Made by a program: the position numbers and the translations under genes | Shown: piece by piece, positions 11,215-58,401 of the stretch | Layout: each line of letters begins with the position of its first letter | How positions within the stretch are numbered: position 1 is the first letter of the stretch | The notes under the pieces: model-generated | Database searches by the model: none | The model's input: only the letters and a program-made list of their open reading frames with translations | Told to the model about the DNA's origin: nothing | Source of the DNA: Bacillota bacterium | Lineage (GTDB): Bacteria; Bacillota; Clostridia; Peptostreptococcales; Anaerovoracaceae | Direction: 5' to 3' | Assembly: GCA_029101005.1 (NCBI GenBank) | Contig: JAQXQE010000009.1 | Coordinates: forward strand, 1 to 62,989 | Length of the DNA stretch: 62,989 nucleotides

Positions 11215-11811
11215 ATGAGACTTGATGCAAAAGGCAAGCAGTGCCCAATTCCAGTAATTATGGCTAAGAAGGAGCTCGACGCTAACACACAGGATCTTGA
11301 GATTCTGGTAGACGGACAGGCTCAGATTGACAATCTTGCAAGACTCGGAGATTCAGTTGGCAGACCTGTAACAAGCGAGCCATGTGATGGAATATTCCTT
11401 GTTAAGTTCGCTAACGGCGACACAAAGTCTGTAGATGGAGACGGAAGCGAGTACTGCAATGCTTCAGCTAACAATACATACGCTGTATTCTTCAACAAGG
11501 ACTCTGTAGGAAGCGGTTCAGACGAGCTCGGACTCAGCCTCGCTAAGATGGCAATCTTCACACTCAGCGAAAGCGACAAGGTTCCAGCTTACATCCTCTT
11601 CATGAACGGCGGAGTTAAGCTCACAACAGGAATCGAGCCACAGATTGTTGAGAATCTTCAGACTCTCATCGACAAGGGCACAAAGGTTCTCGTTTGCGGA
11701 ACATGCCTGAACTTCTTCGGAGTTAAGGATGATATGAAGGTTGGTACAGTAAGCAACATGTACGACATCCTCGGCGCTATGCAGGAAGTTGGCAAGGTCA
11801 TCACTCTTTAA
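11215..11811 (+). CDS. yedF: YedF-type sulfurtransferase-like selenium metabolism protein
   Basis: A 198-residue two-domain protein. The N-terminal TusA/SirA-like domain has the cysteine-proline motif KQCPIPVIMAKKEL. The C-terminal DsrE-like domain contains FMNGGVKLT and VLVCGTCLNFFGV with a CxxC pair. Proteins of this architecture occur almost only in selenium-using prokaryotes and are thought to carry selenium or sulfur as a persulfide or perselenide. The ribosome site AGGAGG lies 7 nt before the ATG. A DUF3343 Se/S-carrier-like gene follows at 13 bp, so the two form a small operon. This is the first hint in the window that the organism handles selenium. Confidence 0.9.
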   Translation: MRLDAKGKQCPIPVIMAKKELDANTQDLEILVDGQAQIDNLARLGDSVGRPVTSEPCDGIFLVKFANGDTKSVDGDGSEYCNASANNTYAVFFNKDSVGSGSDELGLSLAKMAIFTLSESDKVPAYILFMNGGVKLTTGIEPQIVENLQTLIDKGTKVLVCGTCLNFFGVKDDMKVGTVSNMYDILGAMQEVGKVITL

Positions 11812-37987: not shown

Positions 37988-40900
37988 CTATTCCTGTTCT
38001 CTTCTCTTCTTGCCGAGTAACAAGTAGCATACGCAACCACCTGCGATGAGACCTATTACTAATCCAATTATGAACTTGTTATCGTAGCCCGATTCTTCAA
38101 CCTCAGTGGAGCCTACATCTGTTACTTTATCTATAACATCTGTGTCAGTATCCACATCTTTGTCTATAGTTGCGCCCTCAACCTCTGCGATTGTAGTTCC
38201 AACACTTGGGCACTTGTGGTCTCTATACCTTTTGATCTCAGCTTTTAAAGCCTTGTTCTCTGCTGCCAGCAGATCGTTTTCTGCTTTAAGCTTTTTAACT
38301 TCATCCTGAAGCTTCTTGTTCTCAGCTACAAGTGGGTTGTCTGTAATTACAAATGTCTTTTCAATTGTACCTACATATTGTCCTTCACCTGTTATTACAA
38401 CTGTTGCAGTACCAATCTCAACATTATTCTTGTATTCTACAGAGAAGTCCTTACCCTCTACAAGTCCAGGAATTGATACCTTAGGTTCATATGGATCGCC
38501 TGTGAACATTACTGATGCATATTCTAATTCAACAAGATCAGCATAGTCCTCGAACGCATAGTCACCAATATATCTGATTACATAGGTGTCATCCTTTAAC
38601 GTTTCATGCAGGATGTTATATGTAGTTACCTCAACCACATGAGAGTTCTCGTGATCCTCGTTAACCTTTCCCTTATTATTCAGGAATGGCTTGTCGCCAA
38701 CCTCCTTAATGCTGTTAGGGAAGTGTACATTTTCGAGCAATCCTTCTTTGAATGCGTACTTACCAATTACCTCGACACCTTCTTCAATAGTAAGTGATTT
38801 CAAGGTTGTTGCCTTGTAGGTACCTTCAAATGCAGATTCCCCGATTTCCTTTACATTTCCAGGAATTGTAAGCTCAGTTAAGTGATGTAAGTGGAACGCT
38901 TTTCTTCCAATCTTAGTCACAGAATTTGGAATTGTAAGACTTGTTAATCTTGCTCCTGCAAAGGCTGTATCACCAATCTCGGTCACTGTATCAGGAATTT
39001 CTACACTAGAGAGGCGAATATTCATTGAGAACGCACCCTGTGGAATAACTGTTACACCTGATGAGAGCTTTAATTCCGTAATATCGTTTGTAGCAAATGC
39101 ACCATCTCCGAGCACTGTTACCGTGTCTGGAATGATCGCTTTCACAAGATCGTTTCCGTAGAAGGCTCTATCGCCAATTTCTGTAAGTCCTGTGAGATCT
39201 ACCTCTTGGAGTGCATTCTGTGCAAATGCCTGTGCACCGAGTTTCTTTACAGTTGCAGGCAGCACTACTGTCTTCATTCCTTCTGGTGAATCTACTCCGA
39301 ATTTAGTAATGACAACTTCATTATCCGGAATCTTGAAGGCTTCATCTCCTATAGCTACAACAGCGTTGCCGTCAGGGGTTGTTGCAGGAATTACAAGATC
39401 CTTTAAGCTTGCACGCTTCACATGACCTGACTCAGACCATCCTGTAACTGTTCCTGTAGCCTCGTCATAGGTGAAATCATTCAGTTCCCAACCTGAACCT
39501 ACTAAGTTGTTATAAACAACGATATGTGAGTAGTTGTTAGCGAATTGTGTATTGTATTTTTCTACCTTAGCTTCATCTCCAACATACAGCTTTACAATTG
39601 GTGATGCTGCTGCAGTTTTAGTACCGAATATGCAGTCTGCAGAAGTGTTCTTTGCTGATACTACTACAGTGCTTGGTAGAGCGACTTCTGTAAGTGCGCT
39701 TCCCGTGAAAGCCTCTTTGCCTATCGTAGTTAATCCCTCATTCAAGGTAATACTTGTCAGTGTCTTGTCTAAGCCCTGCTGATATACACGGAAGGCCTGT
39801 GATCCAATTGACGTTACACTGTTTGGAAGTGTAATAGAAGTAAGCTGATGGTTCTCAAACGCCTTACTTCCGATTGTTTGCAGAGTACTTGGCAATGATA
39901 ATGTTTCTACATGTCTTCCTGCAAAAGCACTTGTTCCAATTGAAACAACGCCCTCTGGAATAACAATTTCCTGTACCTCTGCGCTTGATGTTCCAACATT
40001 TGCAAATGCATTATTTGGAATATTCTTAAGAGAAGCAGAAAGCTTAATCTCTGTAAGCTCCGTACTTCCTGTATATGCAGCTAAACCTAATGTTGTCACA
40101 CTATCCGGCAGAACAACGCTTGTAAGCTTTGAATTCTGGAATGCAGTTTGACCGATTTCGTTCAATCCGTCAGGCAGAACGATAGAGGTCATAGTTGCCT
40201 CATATTTATATGCACCTAAGGCAAATGTCCACTTTCCGATTTTTGTCAGTGATGAAGGTAATTTAACACTTGCAGGTGTGTAGTACTTGTCGTCTGTATT
40301 CTCAGCTGTACCCATGGTATCTACAAATACGAAAATACCCTGCTGATTAATACCATCACCAAGTGCTGTAATAGCTTCCCCTGTAGGTCCAAGCTCTGGA
40401 AGAACAAGGTTTGGATTCTCTTTAATCTTAGCCTTACCGCTCTCCGAAAGTCCTGTGATTACTGTGCCTGTTCCATCATATGTGAAATCAGTCTGGCTCC
40501 ATGCCGCTAAAACTTCTGGGATAGTGCCTCTAAATAACTCTTGAACATTTGAAGTGCCCGCAGACTTGCATTCAACCTTGCTATCTAATGTTGCATCATC
40601 AGAAATGTTCATATACATATGAACAAGTCCGCCTTTTTTCTCGCTTGTTGTTCCGGCAGTTATTTCTTCCATTCCGGTATTCTGAAGGAAAGCCCACTTC
40701 TGTACTTTCTCAGTGTTGCTTGGAAGCTGTACAGCCTTAATCTTGTTGATAGCAAAAGCCATTGTGTCTACTTGGAAATTGAAATCAGTAGTTTCTGGGA
40801 AATTTAATGTACTGATTTCATTCTTTGCAAACGCTGAATTTCCAACCATCATTGTAGTGCTTGGCAAAGTAAGCGAAGTCAATTTGTTAGAATTAAACGA

Positions 40901-43198
40901 GTTGCCTCCGATATAGATTACTCCCTCAGGCAGCTCTAATTCAGTAAGAGCATTGCTTTGGAATGCACTTGCTCCGATAAAGAAGTTTCCTCTCTCTGTT
41001 ACGTCACTTCCGGTAGTAGTCCAATTCTCTGTATATTCAGTCTTAACATTCTCAGGGAATTGTACAGATGTAAGTCCCTTTTTCTTAAAGGCGCTATTTC
41101 CTACACCCTGTACTTCATTTCCTGTTGTGTCTACTGCTGGAATTACTAGATCCTTATTTGACTCTAATTTCTGTAATCCAGTCTCCGAGAACCCAGTAAC
41201 AACATTAATCTTCATATTAGTTGTTGATGAATACTCGTTTGCTGGATATAACGCTACCTCTAACTCTCCGTATGTGAAGTCACCTGCCGTCCACACATTA
41301 CTATCTGTAAGAATAATCTCGTGATAGTTAGATGCAGGGAAATTCGTTGTATCTTCGTACTGTGACTTTAATGAAACGTACACCTTTGTCACTTTTGCAA
41401 CTGTGTCATCGGAGTACTCTTTTGCAAATGTGTTCTTGTAAATCTTTTTTACAGTAGTTGGTAAAGTGATTTCATCAATCACTTTATTTCTAAAGGCATA
41501 TGATCCAATAGTCTCAAGTCCCTCATTCAATGTAACTGTACATGGAGTTACGAGGTAATTCTTTGTTGAGAATGCATATGAACCAATTTCCTTTACAGTT
41601 GAAGGAATTACAATTTCCTTGAAATTATTTCCCGCAAAGGCATTACGGTCAATCTTGGTAATGCCCTCGTGAAGTTCAATGCTTGTCAGCTTCTCCATCC
41701 AGTTCTTCGCATCACTGCAGCCAAATGCTCCGCTTGGAATTTCTGTGAGTCCCTTTGACAGGCTGATACGTTCCAGCTTAGGGTTTGTACCAAATGCACC
41801 TCCGCCAAGTGATGTTACCGTGTCTGGTAAGATGACGCTTGTAAGCTCATTTGATTGGAAAGCACTAATTCCAATCGTCTCTAACTTGGAAGGAAAGGTC
41901 ACTTCCTTGAGACCATTGTTACGGAATGCAAAGTCTCCGATCTTAACCAAGTGGCTTGGTAAATATACAGAATCAAAGCCTTCACCTTCTGCACCAAACA
42001 GTCCGTATGGCGATGCAGCACCTGAGCTTGATGCGATTTCTGTAATGTATTGTCCTTCCCTGTTAATTTCAGGAATAACAAGGTCCTTATTTGTTTGTCT
42101 CTTTGCAATACCTGACTCTGAGAGACCTGTGATTACAGTTCCCTCATATGTAAAGTCTGCGATGTTCCATGGAAGGTCAGGATTCTGCGTTTCATCACTT
42201 CCATCATTTACTACCAGCTTCTGAACATACGAATACTGCGAAGCAGTTTCTTTACCAGCATGGTGTATTCTGTCTTTGCCTTCTAATTCAGCATTGTCTG
42301 TGTACATATAGACAATACCTGCATCATATGTTTTGCCGTCTAATTGATATGATTTATATGAAGCCTTTGCATCTTCTGGAATTGGTTCCATACCTAAATT
42401 CAAGAAGAACACATCTTTGTTTACCACTTCTGTATAATCTGGCAAACGTACAGATTTAATGAAATTTTTTGCAAAAACCATTCCGTGAAGTTCTAACTGA
42501 AAATCACAGGTGGTAGGGAAATTAACAGTAGTAATTCTGTTATTTGCAAAAGCCATTGTCTCAACCCACCAAATAGTCTTTGGTAATCTTACACTTGTAA
42601 GCTTATTATTGTTGAATGCAGATGGCAGCACAGCAATAACACCCTCCGGAAGTGTTAAGGAGGTGAGATTATTACCTGCAAAAGCACTCTCTGCAATTAC
42701 AAAGTTACCTCTCTTTGTTACTTTGTGTGTTACTGTATCATCGTAATCAACCATCATTCCCTTAGGGAATGTTACAGATGTTAGTCCTTTGTTCTTGAAA
42801 GCACTCTCTGCAATTCCTACAATCTGATAACCTTCGTCATCAACCGCTGGAATTACAAGATCAGTATTAAGAGCAAGCTTTGCCTCTCCTGATTCTGAGA
42901 ATCCTGCAATTGCTGAGCCCTTAATCGTAATTTCTCTTGTGTAGTCACATCCGTAGAGATACTTCTCATAACTTGTATAAGTAAAGTCATCTGAAGTCCA
43001 CTTAGATGCATCAATTGTAGTATCAGTGTTTGTGTTTGTATTTGTGTTTGTATCAACACCACCATTATCAACTACAGTATTATCAACACCACTATCATTA
43101 ACTACAGTATTGTCGACTTCTTGTGCGAATCCCGCAAAAGTACTAAGAAATACCATAGCTATAGTCAAGATGAGTGCCAGTATTCGCTTCTGTTTCAT
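37988..43198 (-). CDS. BspA-like leucine-rich repeat surface protein with five modules
   Basis: A 1736-residue exported protein. Residues 1-25 are a signal peptide. A threonine/asparagine/aspartate repeat follows (about 28-62). Five modules begin near residues 67, 344, 636, 902 and 1239. Each opens with W-x3-DFTY, then SESG, then LVIP, and carries LRR_5 repeats (LTSVTLP, then I/L-G-x-x-AF). A beta-rich domain (about 1520-1600), a Lys/Glu/Leu coiled coil (about 1605-1650) and a C-terminal helix with a KKRREQE tail end the chain. No LPXTG motif is present, so it is probably membrane-anchored. BspA proteins bind host matrix or other bacteria; the ligand here is unknown. Confidence 0.85.
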   Translation of the reverse strand: MKQKRILALILTIAMVFLSTFAGFAQEVDNTVVNDSGVDNTVVDNGGVDTNTNTNTNTDTTIDASKWTSDDFTYTSYEKYLYGCDYTREITIKGSAIAGFSESGEAKLALNTDLVIPAVDDEGYQIVGIAESAFKNKGLTSVTFPKGMMVDYDDTVTHKVTKRGNFVIAESAFAGNNLTSLTLPEGVIAVLPSAFNNNKLTSVRLPKTIWWVETMAFANNRITTVNFPTTCDFQLELHGMVFAKNFIKSVRLPDYTEVVNKDVFFLNLGMEPIPEDAKASYKSYQLDGKTYDAGIVYMYTDNAELEGKDRIHHAGKETASQYSYVQKLVVNDGSDETQNPDLPWNIADFTYEGTVITGLSESGIAKRQTNKDLVIPEINREGQYITEIASSSGAASPYGLFGAEGEGFDSVYLPSHLVKIGDFAFRNNGLKEVTFPSKLETIGISAFQSNELTSVILPDTVTSLGGGAFGTNPKLERISLSKGLTEIPSGAFGCSDAKNWMEKLTSIELHEGITKIDRNAFAGNNFKEIVIPSTVKEIGSYAFSTKNYLVTPCTVTLNEGLETIGSYAFRNKVIDEITLPTTVKKIYKNTFAKEYSDDTVAKVTKVYVSLKSQYEDTTNFPASNYHEIILTDSNVWTAGDFTYGELEVALYPANEYSSTTNMKINVVTGFSETGLQKLESNKDLVIPAVDTTGNEVQGVGNSAFKKKGLTSVQFPENVKTEYTENWTTTGSDVTERGNFFIGASAFQSNALTELELPEGVIYIGGNSFNSNKLTSLTLPSTTMMVGNSAFAKNEISTLNFPETTDFNFQVDTMAFAINKIKAVQLPSNTEKVQKWAFLQNTGMEEITAGTTSEKKGGLVHMYMNISDDATLDSKVECKSAGTSNVQELFRGTIPEVLAAWSQTDFTYDGTGTVITGLSESGKAKIKENPNLVLPELGPTGEAITALGDGINQQGIFVFVDTMGTAENTDDKYYTPASVKLPSSLTKIGKWTFALGAYKYEATMTSIVLPDGLNEIGQTAFQNSKLTSVVLPDSVTTLGLAAYTGSTELTEIKLSASLKNIPNNAFANVGTSSAEVQEIVIPEGVVSIGTSAFAGRHVETLSLPSTLQTIGSKAFENHQLTSITLPNSVTSIGSQAFRVYQQGLDKTLTSITLNEGLTTIGKEAFTGSALTEVALPSTVVVSAKNTSADCIFGTKTAAASPIVKLYVGDEAKVEKYNTQFANNYSHIVVYNNLVGSGWELNDFTYDEATGTVTGWSESGHVKRASLKDLVIPATTPDGNAVVAIGDEAFKIPDNEVVITKFGVDSPEGMKTVVLPATVKKLGAQAFAQNALQEVDLTGLTEIGDRAFYGNDLVKAIIPDTVTVLGDGAFATNDITELKLSSGVTVIPQGAFSMNIRLSSVEIPDTVTEIGDTAFAGARLTSLTIPNSVTKIGRKAFHLHHLTELTIPGNVKEIGESAFEGTYKATTLKSLTIEEGVEVIGKYAFKEGLLENVHFPNSIKEVGDKPFLNNKGKVNEDHENSHVVEVTTYNILHETLKDDTYVIRYIGDYAFEDYADLVELEYASVMFTGDPYEPKVSIPGLVEGKDFSVEYKNNVEIGTATVVITGEGQYVGTIEKTFVITDNPLVAENKKLQDEVKKLKAENDLLAAENKALKAEIKRYRDHKCPSVGTTIAEVEGATIDKDVDTDTDVIDKVTDVGSTEVEESGYDNKFIIGLVIGLIAGGCVCYLLLGKKRREQE

Positions 43199-43346
43199 TG
43201 TTAGGCCTCCCAGTTATGATATAAACAGTTGCTTTAACTTTACCATTTGGGCCATATTGCTTCTAATCGATTTTCCTATATAATAACGATTACATATTGG
43301 TGTTTTCGATACATTGAGGGCGTTCAGCATGCCTACTTGAAATATG

Positions 43347-43363
43347 CGTCCCATTATGGGACG
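43347..43363. promoter_or_regulatory. Perfect palindrome upstream of the YeeE/YedE gene
   Basis: CGTCCCAT and ATGGGACG with a one-base spacer form a 17-bp palindrome 37 bp before the start codon. It is a candidate operator; no regulator can be assigned. Confidence 0.45.
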
Positions 43364-43400
43364 ATTAACAAAAGAATTTAATTACAAGGGAGAGAGCCGC

Positions 43401-44390
43401 ATGATTTCTCTATTTGAAAGTAGCAACAACATCATATGGTATTTATTATTCGGAATAATCTTCGGATTTATTCTGCAGCGTTCCAGATTATGTTTTGTTT
43501 CTGCAACCAGCGACCCTTTTCTCACCAGCTCAACAGTACAATTCCGTGGTATATTAATCGGCATTTTAACAGCATCCGTCGGCATCACGGCAATCAAATA
43601 CTTATCTAACGGCACCTTGGATCTTCTAGGTGTTTCTGCCATCAGTGTCCCTCTTTTTCTCGGAGCGTTTATATTTGGAATCGGTATGATCCTCTGTGGC
43701 GCATGTACAACGGGAATGTTTGTCAGAATGGCGGAAGGATATGCCATACACTTCGTTACCTTAATTTCTGTGATTGCAGGATATTTACTTGCCAACTCTC
43801 ACTATCAAGCATTATGGGCTCCGATGATTGCGAACTCACTTGCAATCTTTCTCCCTCACGAACTCGGATGGATAGGCGGTGTACTTGCGCACATCGTACT
43901 TATTATGCTTCTATATCTCGTTGCCCTTCGATTCGAGGAAGGAACAGCACCTTCGAATTCGACAAGCTACCTTAAAGGCGGTGTTTTCCTTGGATTATTT
44001 ATCATTCTTCATTACATAGTTTTACAATCAACTTGGTCTGTCACCGGAGCTTTCTTCTGGCTTAGTGATTTAAGCGCCTTTACGGACGCAAAGCTATCAA
44101 CTGTTGCTATCGGTCCAAATTTACGTAATGTAGGATTATTTGTAGGAGCACTCATCTCTGCTCTTATCGGAAAGAACTGGAAACTGAAAAAAATCCGTTC
44201 TTCAAAGCAAGTATGCCGGAATGCTGTAGGCGGAATCCTTATGGGATATGGTGCATGCATCGCCAGCGGCTGTAACATCAGTGCGTTCTTCACCGCTGCT
44301 GCTTCATTGTCACTTTCGGCTTGGGTATTTCTTCCTTGCCTTTTTGCAGGTGCATTTGTTGGAACCAAAATTTTGGCTAAGTGGTTATAG
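43401..44390 (+). CDS. YeeE/YedE family sulfur/selenium-compound transporter
   Basis: The ATG at 43401 (AAGGGAGAG upstream) gives 329 residues; an upstream in-frame ATG at 43344 lies in the palindrome and is not supported. There are about nine to ten hydrophobic segments. The family cysteines are visible in RSRLCFVSA, ILCGACTTGMF and MGYGACIASGCNISAFF. YeeE moves thiosulfate through a chain of cysteines, and YedE-type relatives are linked to selenium metabolism. Which compound this one carries is unknown. The next gene starts 6 bp after its stop, so they form one operon. Confidence 0.85.
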   Translation: MISLFESSNNIIWYLLFGIIFGFILQRSRLCFVSATSDPFLTSSTVQFRGILIGILTASVGITAIKYLSNGTLDLLGVSAISVPLFLGAFIFGIGMILCGACTTGMFVRMAEGYAIHFVTLISVIAGYLLANSHYQALWAPMIANSLAIFLPHELGWIGGVLAHIVLIMLLYLVALRFEEGTAPSNSTSYLKGGVFLGLFIILHYIVLQSTWSVTGAFFWLSDLSAFTDAKLSTVAIGPNLRNVGLFVGALISALIGKNWKLKKIRSSKQVCRNAVGGILMGYGACIASGCNISAFFTAAASLSLSAWVFLPCLFAGAFVGTKILAKWL

Positions 44391-44396
44391 AGAATT

Positions 44397-44909
44397 ATGA
44401 TAAAGAATACATCTAATACAACCAAACTTAATCTGTACCGCAAAGAGCAAATTGCGATTGGTATTCTTTTGCTCTGTTTTGCTGTATTAGGATTCCTTCT
44501 TCCGTCTCTAGACAATACTGATCGTTCTCAAGACGAAAGCCAGGAGGTGATTATCGGCGAGAATATTTCTGTTCCATCAGACACAACTGTTGACACAACA
44601 GACGACGCCTCAACTATCACTACTAAGCCTAAGTCTTCGAAGGCTAAGCCTAAGCCTGTACCCGGTAAGACATGGGTACCACCTGTTTATGAAATCGTTC
44701 ACCACGAAGCTGTTTACGAAACACGTCGTGTTATCGTCTGCAACTATTGTAGTGCGGAATTTGCTTCTGTCGGTGCATTCCAAGTACATAAAGATGCTAA
44801 CGGAGGATGAGCCGGCTTGCATACTACTTGCCGTGTTGTAAGTAAAACAATACTCGTTAAAGAGGCCTGGGACGAGAAAGTGCTCGTTTCAGAGGGATAT
44901 TATAAGTAA
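44397..44909 (+). CDS. Small membrane-anchored CxxC protein with an in-frame TGA; candidate selenoprotein
   Basis: The conventional reading stops at TGA 44808-44810 after 137 residues. Residues 19-36 are a membrane anchor; a Ser/Thr/Lys/Pro-rich linker follows; the head begins HHEAVYETRRVIV and contains CNYC, then a histidine 13 residues later. Past the TGA the same frame runs 32 more codons to TAA 44907-44909, immediately before the terminator. That tail contains LHTTC and VKEAWDEKVLVSE, which echoes the HHEAVYETRRVIV text before the CNYC. A hairpin at 44825-44844 meets bacterial SECIS spacing. Read through, the protein has 170 residues with selenocysteine at 138. The alternative is a simple nonsense mutation. 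Confidence 0.55.
44825..44844 (+). promoter_or_regulatory. SECIS-like hairpin after the in-frame TGA
   Basis: TACTTGC pairs with GTAAGTA (7 bp, one G-U) around the 6-nt loop CGTGTT. The loop has G at its second position, 22 nt after the TGA. The published bacterial SECIS model asks for a stem-loop with a G in the first two loop positions 16-37 nt after TGA. The match is good, but short hairpins also arise by chance. Confidence 0.45.
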
Positions 44910-44935
44910 AAAAACACCCCGCGTCGCGGGGTTTT
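44908..44935. terminator. Bidirectional terminator between the CxxC gene and lpd
   Basis: CCCCGCG and CGCGGGG pair around a single T; A run on the left and TTTT on the right. It serves both convergent operons. Confidence 0.88.
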
Positions 44936-44952
44936 CTTATTCAAGTACTGCT

Positions 44953-46302
44953 CTAGCGAACCGCCTCACCGATTCCCTCAACGAAAGTTGGGTGTGGGTG
45001 AATTGTTGCAGCAACCTGCTCGAGTGTCATGCCGCCGCTGATAGCGACAGCCATCTCACCGATCATATCAGTTGCTCTAGCACACATCATCTGGCAGCCT
45101 ACAATCTTGTGTGTATCAGCATCAGCTACTACCTTGATGAAGCCTCTCTCCTGGTTCGAGAGAACTGACTTACCATTAGCTGACATGATGAACTTCTTTG
45201 CTACTACATCGCGTCCTGCAGCCTTTGCCTCATCAGCCGTAATACCAACTGTAGCAATCTCAGGATTTGTGTATACGCAGCTTGGAACTACGTCCATACA
45301 GATTGAAGGCTCCTCGCCGTTCATGATAGCAACAGCATTTCTTCCCTCTGCAGTCGCAACGTGTGCGAGCTGGATTCCGCCGATAACGTCACCTATCGCA
45401 TATACGCCAGGCATCGAAGTCTGATACTTGTCGTTAACGACAATTTTATCGCGGTCCATCTCTACGGAAACACCCTCTGCGAAGAGACCGTCTGTGTTAG
45501 CACGTCTTCCGATGCATACGAGAACTCCATCAGACTCAACTGACTGAAGCTCGTCCTTCTCTCTGTAGAATGTAACAAGCTTGCCGTCTGCACCAGCCTC
45601 GAACTTCTCAACCATAGCCTTCGCATGGATTTCCATTCCGCGCTTCTTGCCGATCATCTTAACATTCTGTGAGATCTCCTTATCGAGTGGAGCGAGCACC
45701 CTATCGAGAGCCTCGATGATAGTAACTTTAGTGCCGAGTGCTGCGTAGAGTGAAGCGAACTCCATTCCGATTACTCCACCGCCAACGATTACGAGATGCT
45801 CGTAGATTCCGTCAGCCTTGTCGAGGATCACATCGCTTGTAACAACGCCAGGTGTGTCAACGCCCTCGATTGGTGGCACGAAAGTCTTTGAACCTGTAGC
45901 GATTAGGATATTCTCAGTCTCGAGAACGTCCTCGCCAACGCGCACTTTGCCAGGTCCCTCGATAACGCCATGGCCCTCGATAACGTCGATCTTGCCCTTC
46001 TTCATGAGAGCCGCTATTCCCGAACGAAGAGTGTCGAGAACCTGATTCTTTCGCTCCTGCATCTTAGAAGCATCTACTGAGTAGTCGCTTACGTTAACGC
46101 CGAAGATGTCAGCATCTCTGAGCTCACGAGCGATATCAGCTGTGTGCATGAGAGTCTTAGTAGGAACGCAGCCACGATTGAGGCATGTTCCGCCAAGCTT
46201 GTCCTTCTCAACCAGTGCAACCTTCATGCCTTTCTCAGCAGCCTCGATAGCTGCCTCGTATCCGCCAGGACCTGCACCGATGATAATTAAGTTATATGTC
46301 AT
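44953..46302 (-). CDS. lpdA: Dihydrolipoyl dehydrogenase (glycine cleavage L-protein)
   Basis: A 449-residue flavoenzyme. FAD binds at IIGAGPGGYEAAI, the redox pair is in GGTCLNRGCVPTKTL, NAD binds at VIVGGGVIGMEFASLYAALG, and the C-terminal catalytic dyad is in HPHPTFVEGIGE. It reoxidises the lipoyl arm of GcvH. There is no N-terminal lipoyl domain, unlike some Clostridial L-proteins. It overlaps lplA by 11 bp and is the last gene of the glycine cleavage operon. Confidence 0.94.
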   Translation of the reverse strand: MTYNLIIIGAGPGGYEAAIEAAEKGMKVALVEKDKLGGTCLNRGCVPTKTLMHTADIARELRDADIFGVNVSDYSVDASKMQERKNQVLDTLRSGIAALMKKGKIDVIEGHGVIEGPGKVRVGEDVLETENILIATGSKTFVPPIEGVDTPGVVTSDVILDKADGIYEHLVIVGGGVIGMEFASLYAALGTKVTIIEALDRVLAPLDKEISQNVKMIGKKRGMEIHAKAMVEKFEAGADGKLVTFYREKDELQSVESDGVLVCIGRRANTDGLFAEGVSVEMDRDKIVVNDKYQTSMPGVYAIGDVIGGIQLAHVATAEGRNAVAIMNGEEPSICMDVVPSCVYTNPEIATVGITADEAKAAGRDVVAKKFIMSANGKSVLSNQERGFIKVVADADTHKIVGCQMMCARATDMIGEMAVAISGGMTLEQVAATIHPHPTFVEGIGEAVR

Positions 46303-57475: not shown

Positions 57476-57895
57476 CTATCTCAACAGAAAATCCGCCCAT
57501 TTGTCAGAAGCTGATGCGTAGTTATCTTTCCAATAGAATAAGCGCTCAACATAGTACTCCAGCCTATCCTGGATTATCGCCTCGCAACCGTCTATTCCAT
57601 TCTCTCTGATTATCGCTGTTAGCTCATATATCGGATGTCCAACAGCATGCCCATTCGTATGAACCGTTCCACACGCCTGCCCAATAGCATGACATCTTGC
57701 GATATCCGCTTCTTCTGTTTTGCCACCAGGAAGTCTGAACTGCGGATAGATTACGCGCGGCTTATCAATCTGACCAGAATAATAATCGTCAAGTATATAC
57801 GGGTCTACCACATACTGAAGTTCAGGGAACTCCTTCTGCAGAATAGCGAGAGCCTTCGCCCTGATAGATTCTACTTTTACCTCAACTACTGCCAT
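57476..57895 (-). CDS. Imm5-like putative immunity protein
   Basis: A 139-residue protein. The central text ARCHAIGQACGTVHTNGHAVGHPIYE resembles the Imm5-type families of putative immunity proteins, which normally pair with polymorphic toxins. The C-terminal part (QDRLEYYVERLFYWKDN) is helical. No toxin gene is nearby. The assignment is by motif recall, and it could be some other alpha-helical family. Confidence 0.5.
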   Translation of the reverse strand: MAVVEVKVESIRAKALAILQKEFPELQYVVDPYILDDYYSGQIDKPRVIYPQFRLPGGKTEEADIARCHAIGQACGTVHTNGHAVGHPIYELTAIIRENGIDGCEAIIQDRLEYYVERLFYWKDNYASASDKWADFLLR

Positions 57896-57969: not shown

Positions 57970-58275
57970 CTAATTGAGATTCGCAGTATACCGAAGTGAT
58001 TGCAAGCCCATTAATGGCGCATCTTCTGCGTGGATGTGATATGTTGTCTGCCCACTCATTCCGTGTATCGTATCGATGTCTCCGACATCTGAATGCACAA
58101 TCCAGTCCACGCCCTCGGATCGCGGGATTGGTCAGATGTTGCCATAGCCACCCTTATACAGAACACAGATGAAATCGCCCAGAACAGATTCGTCTGGCAT
58201 CCAGATAGTATATTCACCGTTATTTGCATCATCACCCATGCACACGGATTTCCGTCCATATTTGATTCGTATCAT
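57970..58275 (-). pseudogene. Hypothetical gene with an in-frame TGA at codon 48
   Basis: From the ATG at 58273-58275 the frame reads 47 residues (KYGRKSVCMGDDANNGEY, then GDFICVLYKGGYGNI), hits TGA at 58132-58134, then continues 53 residues in frame (PIPRSEGVDWIVHSDVGD) to TAG at 57970. The spacing suggests TGA replaced TGG (tryptophan before PIP), which is a single transition. A loose hairpin follows the TGA, but I judge a nonsense mutation much more likely than selenocysteine. A second frame over the same stretch (RCAINGLAITSVYCE, ending near 57902) also looks protein-like, so the region may be rearranged. Confidence 0.5.
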
Positions 58276-58401
58276 TGCTTCACCTCTGTTTGTCTCTGCA
58301 ATGTACGTTTATACCTTAGCATTTATACCATATACTCTCTCCATAATATAATTATCATTATGAGAAGAAACAATTGAATTCATATATGCATTTACGTGTA
58401 T

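Follow-up and report, generated by a model that had tools for sequence, protein, structure and literature searches.

A candidate selenoprotein from an apparently undescribed family of membrane-anchored, zinc-finger-like proteins encoded near giant surface proteins

The gene at 44397..44909 (plus strand) of the window, by which we mean the whole stretch of 62,989 nucleotides that was analyzed, very probably encodes a genuine selenoprotein of a new family. The conventional open reading frame (44397-44810) gives 137 amino acids up to an in-frame TGA at 44808..44810 (plus strand). If SelB reads this UGA as selenocysteine (Sec), guided by a hairpin at 44825..44844, the product would have about 170 residues, with Sec as U138, and would be made up of a signal anchor, a low-complexity linker, and a C-terminal zinc-finger-like domain. 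A preliminary description of this DNA had proposed a selenoprotein, and that interpretation is now strongly supported by the occurrence of TGA or Cys at the same alignment column, the conserved tail, the hairpins, and the Sec machinery. The frame stays open beyond the TGA as had been described, with a tail (44811..44909, plus strand) of 32 sense codons that ends in a TAA (44907-44909) ahead of an intrinsic terminator-like stem-loop at 44916..44932 (plus strand).

Relatives were collected at several taxonomic levels. The read-through query identified relatives in two other genomes of the same genus (60 searched, including the window's own). Profile searches matched 4 of 47 genomes of the genus and 14 of 349 genomes of the taxonomic family, four of these 14 being distant, and scanning the genome collection of the species for the pattern returned 17 loci, namely seven repeats of known genes, two new members (L046 and L048), and eight distant proteins. 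The 393 genomes of the order and 391 of the class that were searched, drawn from larger groups, yielded no additional member that could be aligned over the domain; the same searches added L085, a distant protein with Cys at the Sec column by profile. Alignability over the domain defined a set of 17 genes, in which the Sec column is TGA in 11 (the window gene, L022, L027, L028, L030, L031, L032, L038, L039, L040, and L041) and TGT or TGC in six (L010, L011, L012, L029, L046, and L048). The question raised earlier, whether relatives have Sec or Cys at this column and keep the tail, was thus answered in favor of the selenoprotein. Ten of the TGA genes come from six further genomes, which with that of the window makes seven. 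One of them (L031, repeated as L049) is from Mogibacterium timidum ATCC 33093, a culture-collection strain; other members are from two Mogibacterium sp. MAGs and from further MAGs, and L046 and L048 are from Actinomycetota.

Thirteen distant matches lie outside the alignment (L033-L036, L050, L051, L053-L058, and L085). By profile, their Sec column holds Cys in three (L036, L058, and L085), another residue or a gap in ten, and TGA in none, and the U/C rule is therefore valid for the family as delimited here and does not extend to all proteins related by fold. Many of these distant proteins (L050, L051, L053-L058, and L085) have flanking strands in common (HEAVYKTVHH, KEAWDEKVLVKE), and a CxxC...H core is frequent among them. 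Also outside the alignment are L013, a weak linker-type match, and the repeats of genes already counted (L014, L019-L021, L023-L026, L037, L042-L045, L047, L049, L052, L059-L072, and L074, with L068 repeating L033).

The tail past the TGA is under purifying selection. We tested three pairs of genes, two of TGA with TGA and one of TGA with Cys. For the tail, dN and dS were 0.04 and 0.61 between L039 and L040 and 0.20 and 1.39 between the window gene and L028, while L031 (TGA) and L029 (Cys) gave a dN of 0.14 with saturated dS; values for the segments before the TGA were comparable (dN 0.14-0.22, dS 1.35 to saturated). On a tree of 79 columns with several weak branches, Sec and Cys alternate with five changes, at least three of which are forced by starred branches.

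SECIS-like hairpins set the TGA genes apart from the Cys genes. A 2026 review (PMC13188914) gives limits for bacterial SECIS elements (loop of 3-9 nt, stem of 4-16 bp, G in the first two loop positions, and spacing of 16-37 nt) and a published model with a minimum free energy at or below -7.5 kcal/mol. We searched explicitly for single stems with the published spacing of 16-37 nt, and also with 18-27 nt, a range picked after the data had been seen, and compared the energies with those of synonymous shuffles that keep the protein (n=400). When one bulge or mismatch was allowed, all 11 TGA genes had a hairpin within the limits (upper-stem energies of -4.4 to -10.5 kcal/mol, loop start at +20 to +25); when bulges and mismatches were disallowed, nine of them did. 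The summed energy of the 11 genes was -72.1, against -18.6 for the shuffles (sd 6.4; z -8.3, 0/400). The nine less redundant TGA genes gave the same result (z -8.3, 0/400), and omission of L039 and L030, whose starts are ambiguous, gave z -7.5 (0/400). Applied to the six Cys genes, the test gave z -0.5 (109/400).

The window hairpin was found as it had been described, with seven base pairs (44825..44844, plus strand) and a six-nucleotide loop with G in its second position (CGTGTT, 44832-44837), the loop lying 21 nt past the TGA. Its energy of -4.9 kcal/mol, as an upper stem weaker than the published -7.5, is reached by 20% of synonymous shuffles. Because the window hairpin alone is within chance, the hairpin argument rests on the 11 TGA genes jointly, for which the SECIS check suggested in the preliminary description came out in favor. 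The hairpin of L028 is that of the window gene, except that one G-T pair has become G-C and the outermost pair is absent, and no synonymous change separates the two genes over its eight codons. Counted over both the L039/L040 and the window/L028 pairs, synonymous changes affect 0 of 16 hairpin codons and 15 of 40 other tail codons; four of those 16 hairpin codons carry an amino-acid change. An earlier, loosely constrained folding test was weak, with five TGA genes out of 11 ranking among the top 5% of their own shuffles and the window gene at 39%, and RNAfold gave a 53-nt window segment a minimum-energy structure (-9.4) that differs from the proposed hairpin. As background, ordinary stops in the window and the fetched loci are followed by hairpins of -4.4 or better at 20 of 118 TGA, 18 of 180 TAA, and 29 of 129 TAG codons. 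All Rfam matches to 44600-45000 at E up to 10 were under the gathering scores of their families.

The genes for Sec synthesis and insertion that the preliminary description had named (selA, selB, selC, and selD) are all present in the window's own genome. The tRNA-Sec has the anticodon TCA, selA (587 bits) and selB (371 bits) score over their NCBIfam cut-offs, and selD, assigned from its sequence, has an in-frame TGA of its own in GG*GAK (L015:10516). The hairpin at this selD TGA (-5.6, loop start +16) falls outside the +20 to +25 range. On contig C11 of this genome, selB, selA, tRNA-Sec, and a divergent selD form a compact cluster (L015:6572-11500). Across the genomes with TGA genes, selB over the cut-off and tRNA-Sec were found in six of seven; both were absent from G130, whose genome is 75% complete. 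Two genomes with Cys members only (G022 and G240) carry both genes, and a third (G027) has selB and a tRNA match of 48.5 bits that is probably tRNA-Ser. The four genomes with distant matches alone have neither. The machinery alone does not discriminate, since all six same-genus genomes tested that are without the candidate gene also have selB and tRNA-Sec. The yedF gene reported earlier for the window was located at 11215-11811 (TIGR03527, 169 bits, cut-off 110).

The protein family is apparently undescribed. We recognized it in none of the 119 bacterial selenoprotein families of Table 1 of the 2026 review (PMC13188914), compared by name. The window domain had no NCBIfam match at E 0.01 (1 of the 17 members had one marginal match, at 0.0098), and searches of an open-licence library gave no paper pointing to this family. 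Because annotation would stop the TGA genes at the TGA and lose the last ~30 codons, current databases probably conceal the family. The candidate is like the bacterial selenoproteins with Sec/Cys homolog pairs in that review (PMC13188914) in having a UGA aligned with Cys, a hairpin inside the published loop, stem, and spacing limits, and SelA, SelB, and tRNA-Sec; it differs in having neither UxxC nor CxxU and in its predicted extracellular position, tethered by a membrane anchor.

Members with a readable N-terminus (that of L046 is masked) begin with a hydrophobic anchor, which a low-complexity linker joins to the C-terminal domain. The signal anchor would hold the protein at the membrane, and some relatives look like lipoproteins, six of them having a lipobox-like sequence by eye (L010, L011, L032, L039, L040, and L041). 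The conserved domain (44664..44906, plus strand) reads KTWVPPVY ... C-x2-C ... H ... U ... EKVLVSEGYYK in the 17-gene alignment. It resembles a small zinc finger, C-xn-C...H...U, with Sec or Cys at the position of the fourth ligand; it is predicted to be extracytoplasmic and to hold a putative metal site. The window protein shares C-x2-C-x3-F-x5-F-x2-H with the C2H2/C2HC zinc fingers (Pfam zf-C2H2) and then has U at the fourth-ligand place. The family differs from these fingers in scoring under the Pfam cut-offs (14 and 15.8 bits for the window protein against zf-C2H2, below the curated cut-off of 27), in its variable Cys spacing, in its predicted extracytoplasmic location, and in having Sec at the fourth position. 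Against the PDB, the family profile matched C2H2 fingers (1mey, 2.8e-5 as a whole, with single fingers weak). The redox head of Cys-x2-Cys, His, and U proposed earlier needs revision: U/C is present in all 17 members, but the motif is better described as C2H2/C2HC-like, and three members are without the second Cys and the His.

It is somewhat unlikely that the protein, while a selenoprotein, uses Sec mainly as a metal ligand, in a non-redox C2H(U/C) site for zinc or another metal that would sense or carry the metal outside the cell. This would fit the Cys, Cys, His pattern with an aromatic core that precedes U/C in 14 of the 17 members, the H-x4-U spacing of L030, L032, L038, and L041, and the C2H2 matches in the PDB. 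Sec may act as a metal ligand in some families (PMC13188914). However, L012, L029, and L031 keep U/C although their second Cys and their His are gone, as is the first Cys of L012, and for this reason we read U/C as a reactive residue and not merely a structural ligand. FmdB proteins are zinc-ribbon-like. An FmdB-family selenoprotein is listed with the motif UxxU (PMC13188914); it is like the candidate in having Sec in a metal-ligand type motif, and is set apart from it by description, its own motif having two Sec.

The 17 genes occupy 16 loci (stretches of 9-21 kb), and a giant surface protein is encoded next to the small gene or a few genes off in all 16. In the window this is a BspA-type LRR protein of 1736 amino acids (37988..43198, minus strand; LRR_5, 541 bits); it has a hydrophobic stretch in its C-terminal part and carries Cys within GCDYTR and AFGCSD. 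Relatives of this protein are found in 11 loci and a second type in six, L081 having both; Pfam confirmed LRR_5 in the three LRR proteins tested and gave no match for the two second-type proteins tested. The LRR protein (E below 1e-60) occurs in 10 of 345 genomes of the taxonomic family, and the small gene occurs in eight of those 10, a co-occurrence with a chance figure of 4e-13 that counts each gene as present in 10 of the 345 genomes and takes no account of kinship. The two exceptions are G016, truncated at the end of a contig, and G029, in which there was no sign of the small gene. The motif Cys of GCDY[TSA]R and [GA]CS are present in 12 of 12 LRR proteins examined (that of L078 was left out); as they include that of G029, the LRR Cys are independent of the small gene. 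All six second-type proteins contain H[FL]SC. One giant LRR gene of G137 has a TGA member of the family on either side (L081, L080), and a third TGA copy lies on another contig. In G241, a gene block at L076 is duplicated and N runs are present, which may be an assembly artifact.

These neighborhoods suggest, as a tentative hypothesis that we hold at rather less than even, that the surface selenol or thiol and the giant Cys-bearing protein encoded nearby engage in thiol-disulfide or metal/sulfur exchange, accompanied at some loci by sulfur import (YeeE, rhodanese). We also consider possible, if doubtful, a new class of cell-surface selenoproteins in which a zinc-finger-like domain of the C2H(U) type, tethered to the membrane and using Sec as its fourth ligand, would be dedicated to the neighboring giant protein, selenium serving the maturation or redox protection of this adhesin-like partner. 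The family itself would add a Sec protein matching no known oxidoreductase family and situated outside the cell, in the vicinity of the giant surface proteins of anaerobes from gut and mouth. This raises the questions of whether Sec is usable as a ligand in a zinc finger and what a surface protein would need a selenol partner for.

A role as an outside receptor for sulfur or selenium in thiosulfate/selenium uptake, with YeeE as the partner, appears unlikely. The gene just upstream in the window (43344..44390, plus strand; alternative later ATG possible at 43401) encodes a YeeE/YedE-type Sulf_transp membrane protein (PF04143, 149 bits) whose top NCBIfam match, YedE/FdhT, scores 143 bits, under the cut-off of 350. 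It has the same direction as the candidate and ends 6 nt before its ATG, in keeping with the operon link made in the preliminary description, and a rhodanese-like lipoprotein gene occurs in 3 of the 16 loci. That link does not extend to the family as a whole: YeeE was found in only eight of the 16 loci and not in the examined stretches of the other eight, whereas each of the 16 has a giant surface protein, although YeeE or the rhodanese-like gene may lie beyond the stretch elsewhere. One YeeE/YedE (TsuA) sulfur transporter is itself listed as a selenoprotein family (PMC13188914). The candidate's neighbor likewise belongs to PF04143, but its reading frame has no in-frame TGA, and it would be a partner at most. 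At L075:8187-9572 (G139), the YeeE gene next to a TGA gene is itself broken into two frames.

A recent nonsense mutation, by which a Cys codon would have decayed to TGA and the product would end at residue 137, is very improbable. A single change does turn TGT or TGC into TGA, and family genes can decay: in G240 the family tail alone is left beside a transporter-like gene (L073), and L039 (locus L078, the second TGA copy of G243) has no in-frame start, with a TAG seven codons before LIGCSS and upstream sequence that looks unrelated. Judged from its sequence, L039 may have broken recently or reflect faulty assembly, and with the ambiguous start of L030 this means that both copies may be broken or misassembled. 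Against a nonsense mutation in the window gene, the same TGA recurs in 11 genes of seven genomes with conserved tails and hairpins, and the terminator-like stem sits past the TAA and not past the TGA. A second in-frame TGA at 58132 had been taken as a sign that this genome has nonsense mutations. It does exist, in a minus-strand frame at ~57998-58300 that reads GYGNI*PIP and adjoins an Imm5-like putative immunity gene (57476-57895), but, as Pfam returned nothing for the frame at E 0.1, it says nothing clear about such mutations. That the TGA is decoded as an amino acid other than Sec, through readthrough or an altered code, is scarcely credible: the frame does stay open across it, but the aligned residue is Cys in the six remaining aligned genes, tRNA-Sec(UCA), selA, and selB are present, and many frames in the window and the fetched loci end at TGA (118 of 427 stops). 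Both a nonsense mutation and a changed code were rejected on the Cys-aligned TGA, the conserved tails, the hairpins, and the Sec machinery.
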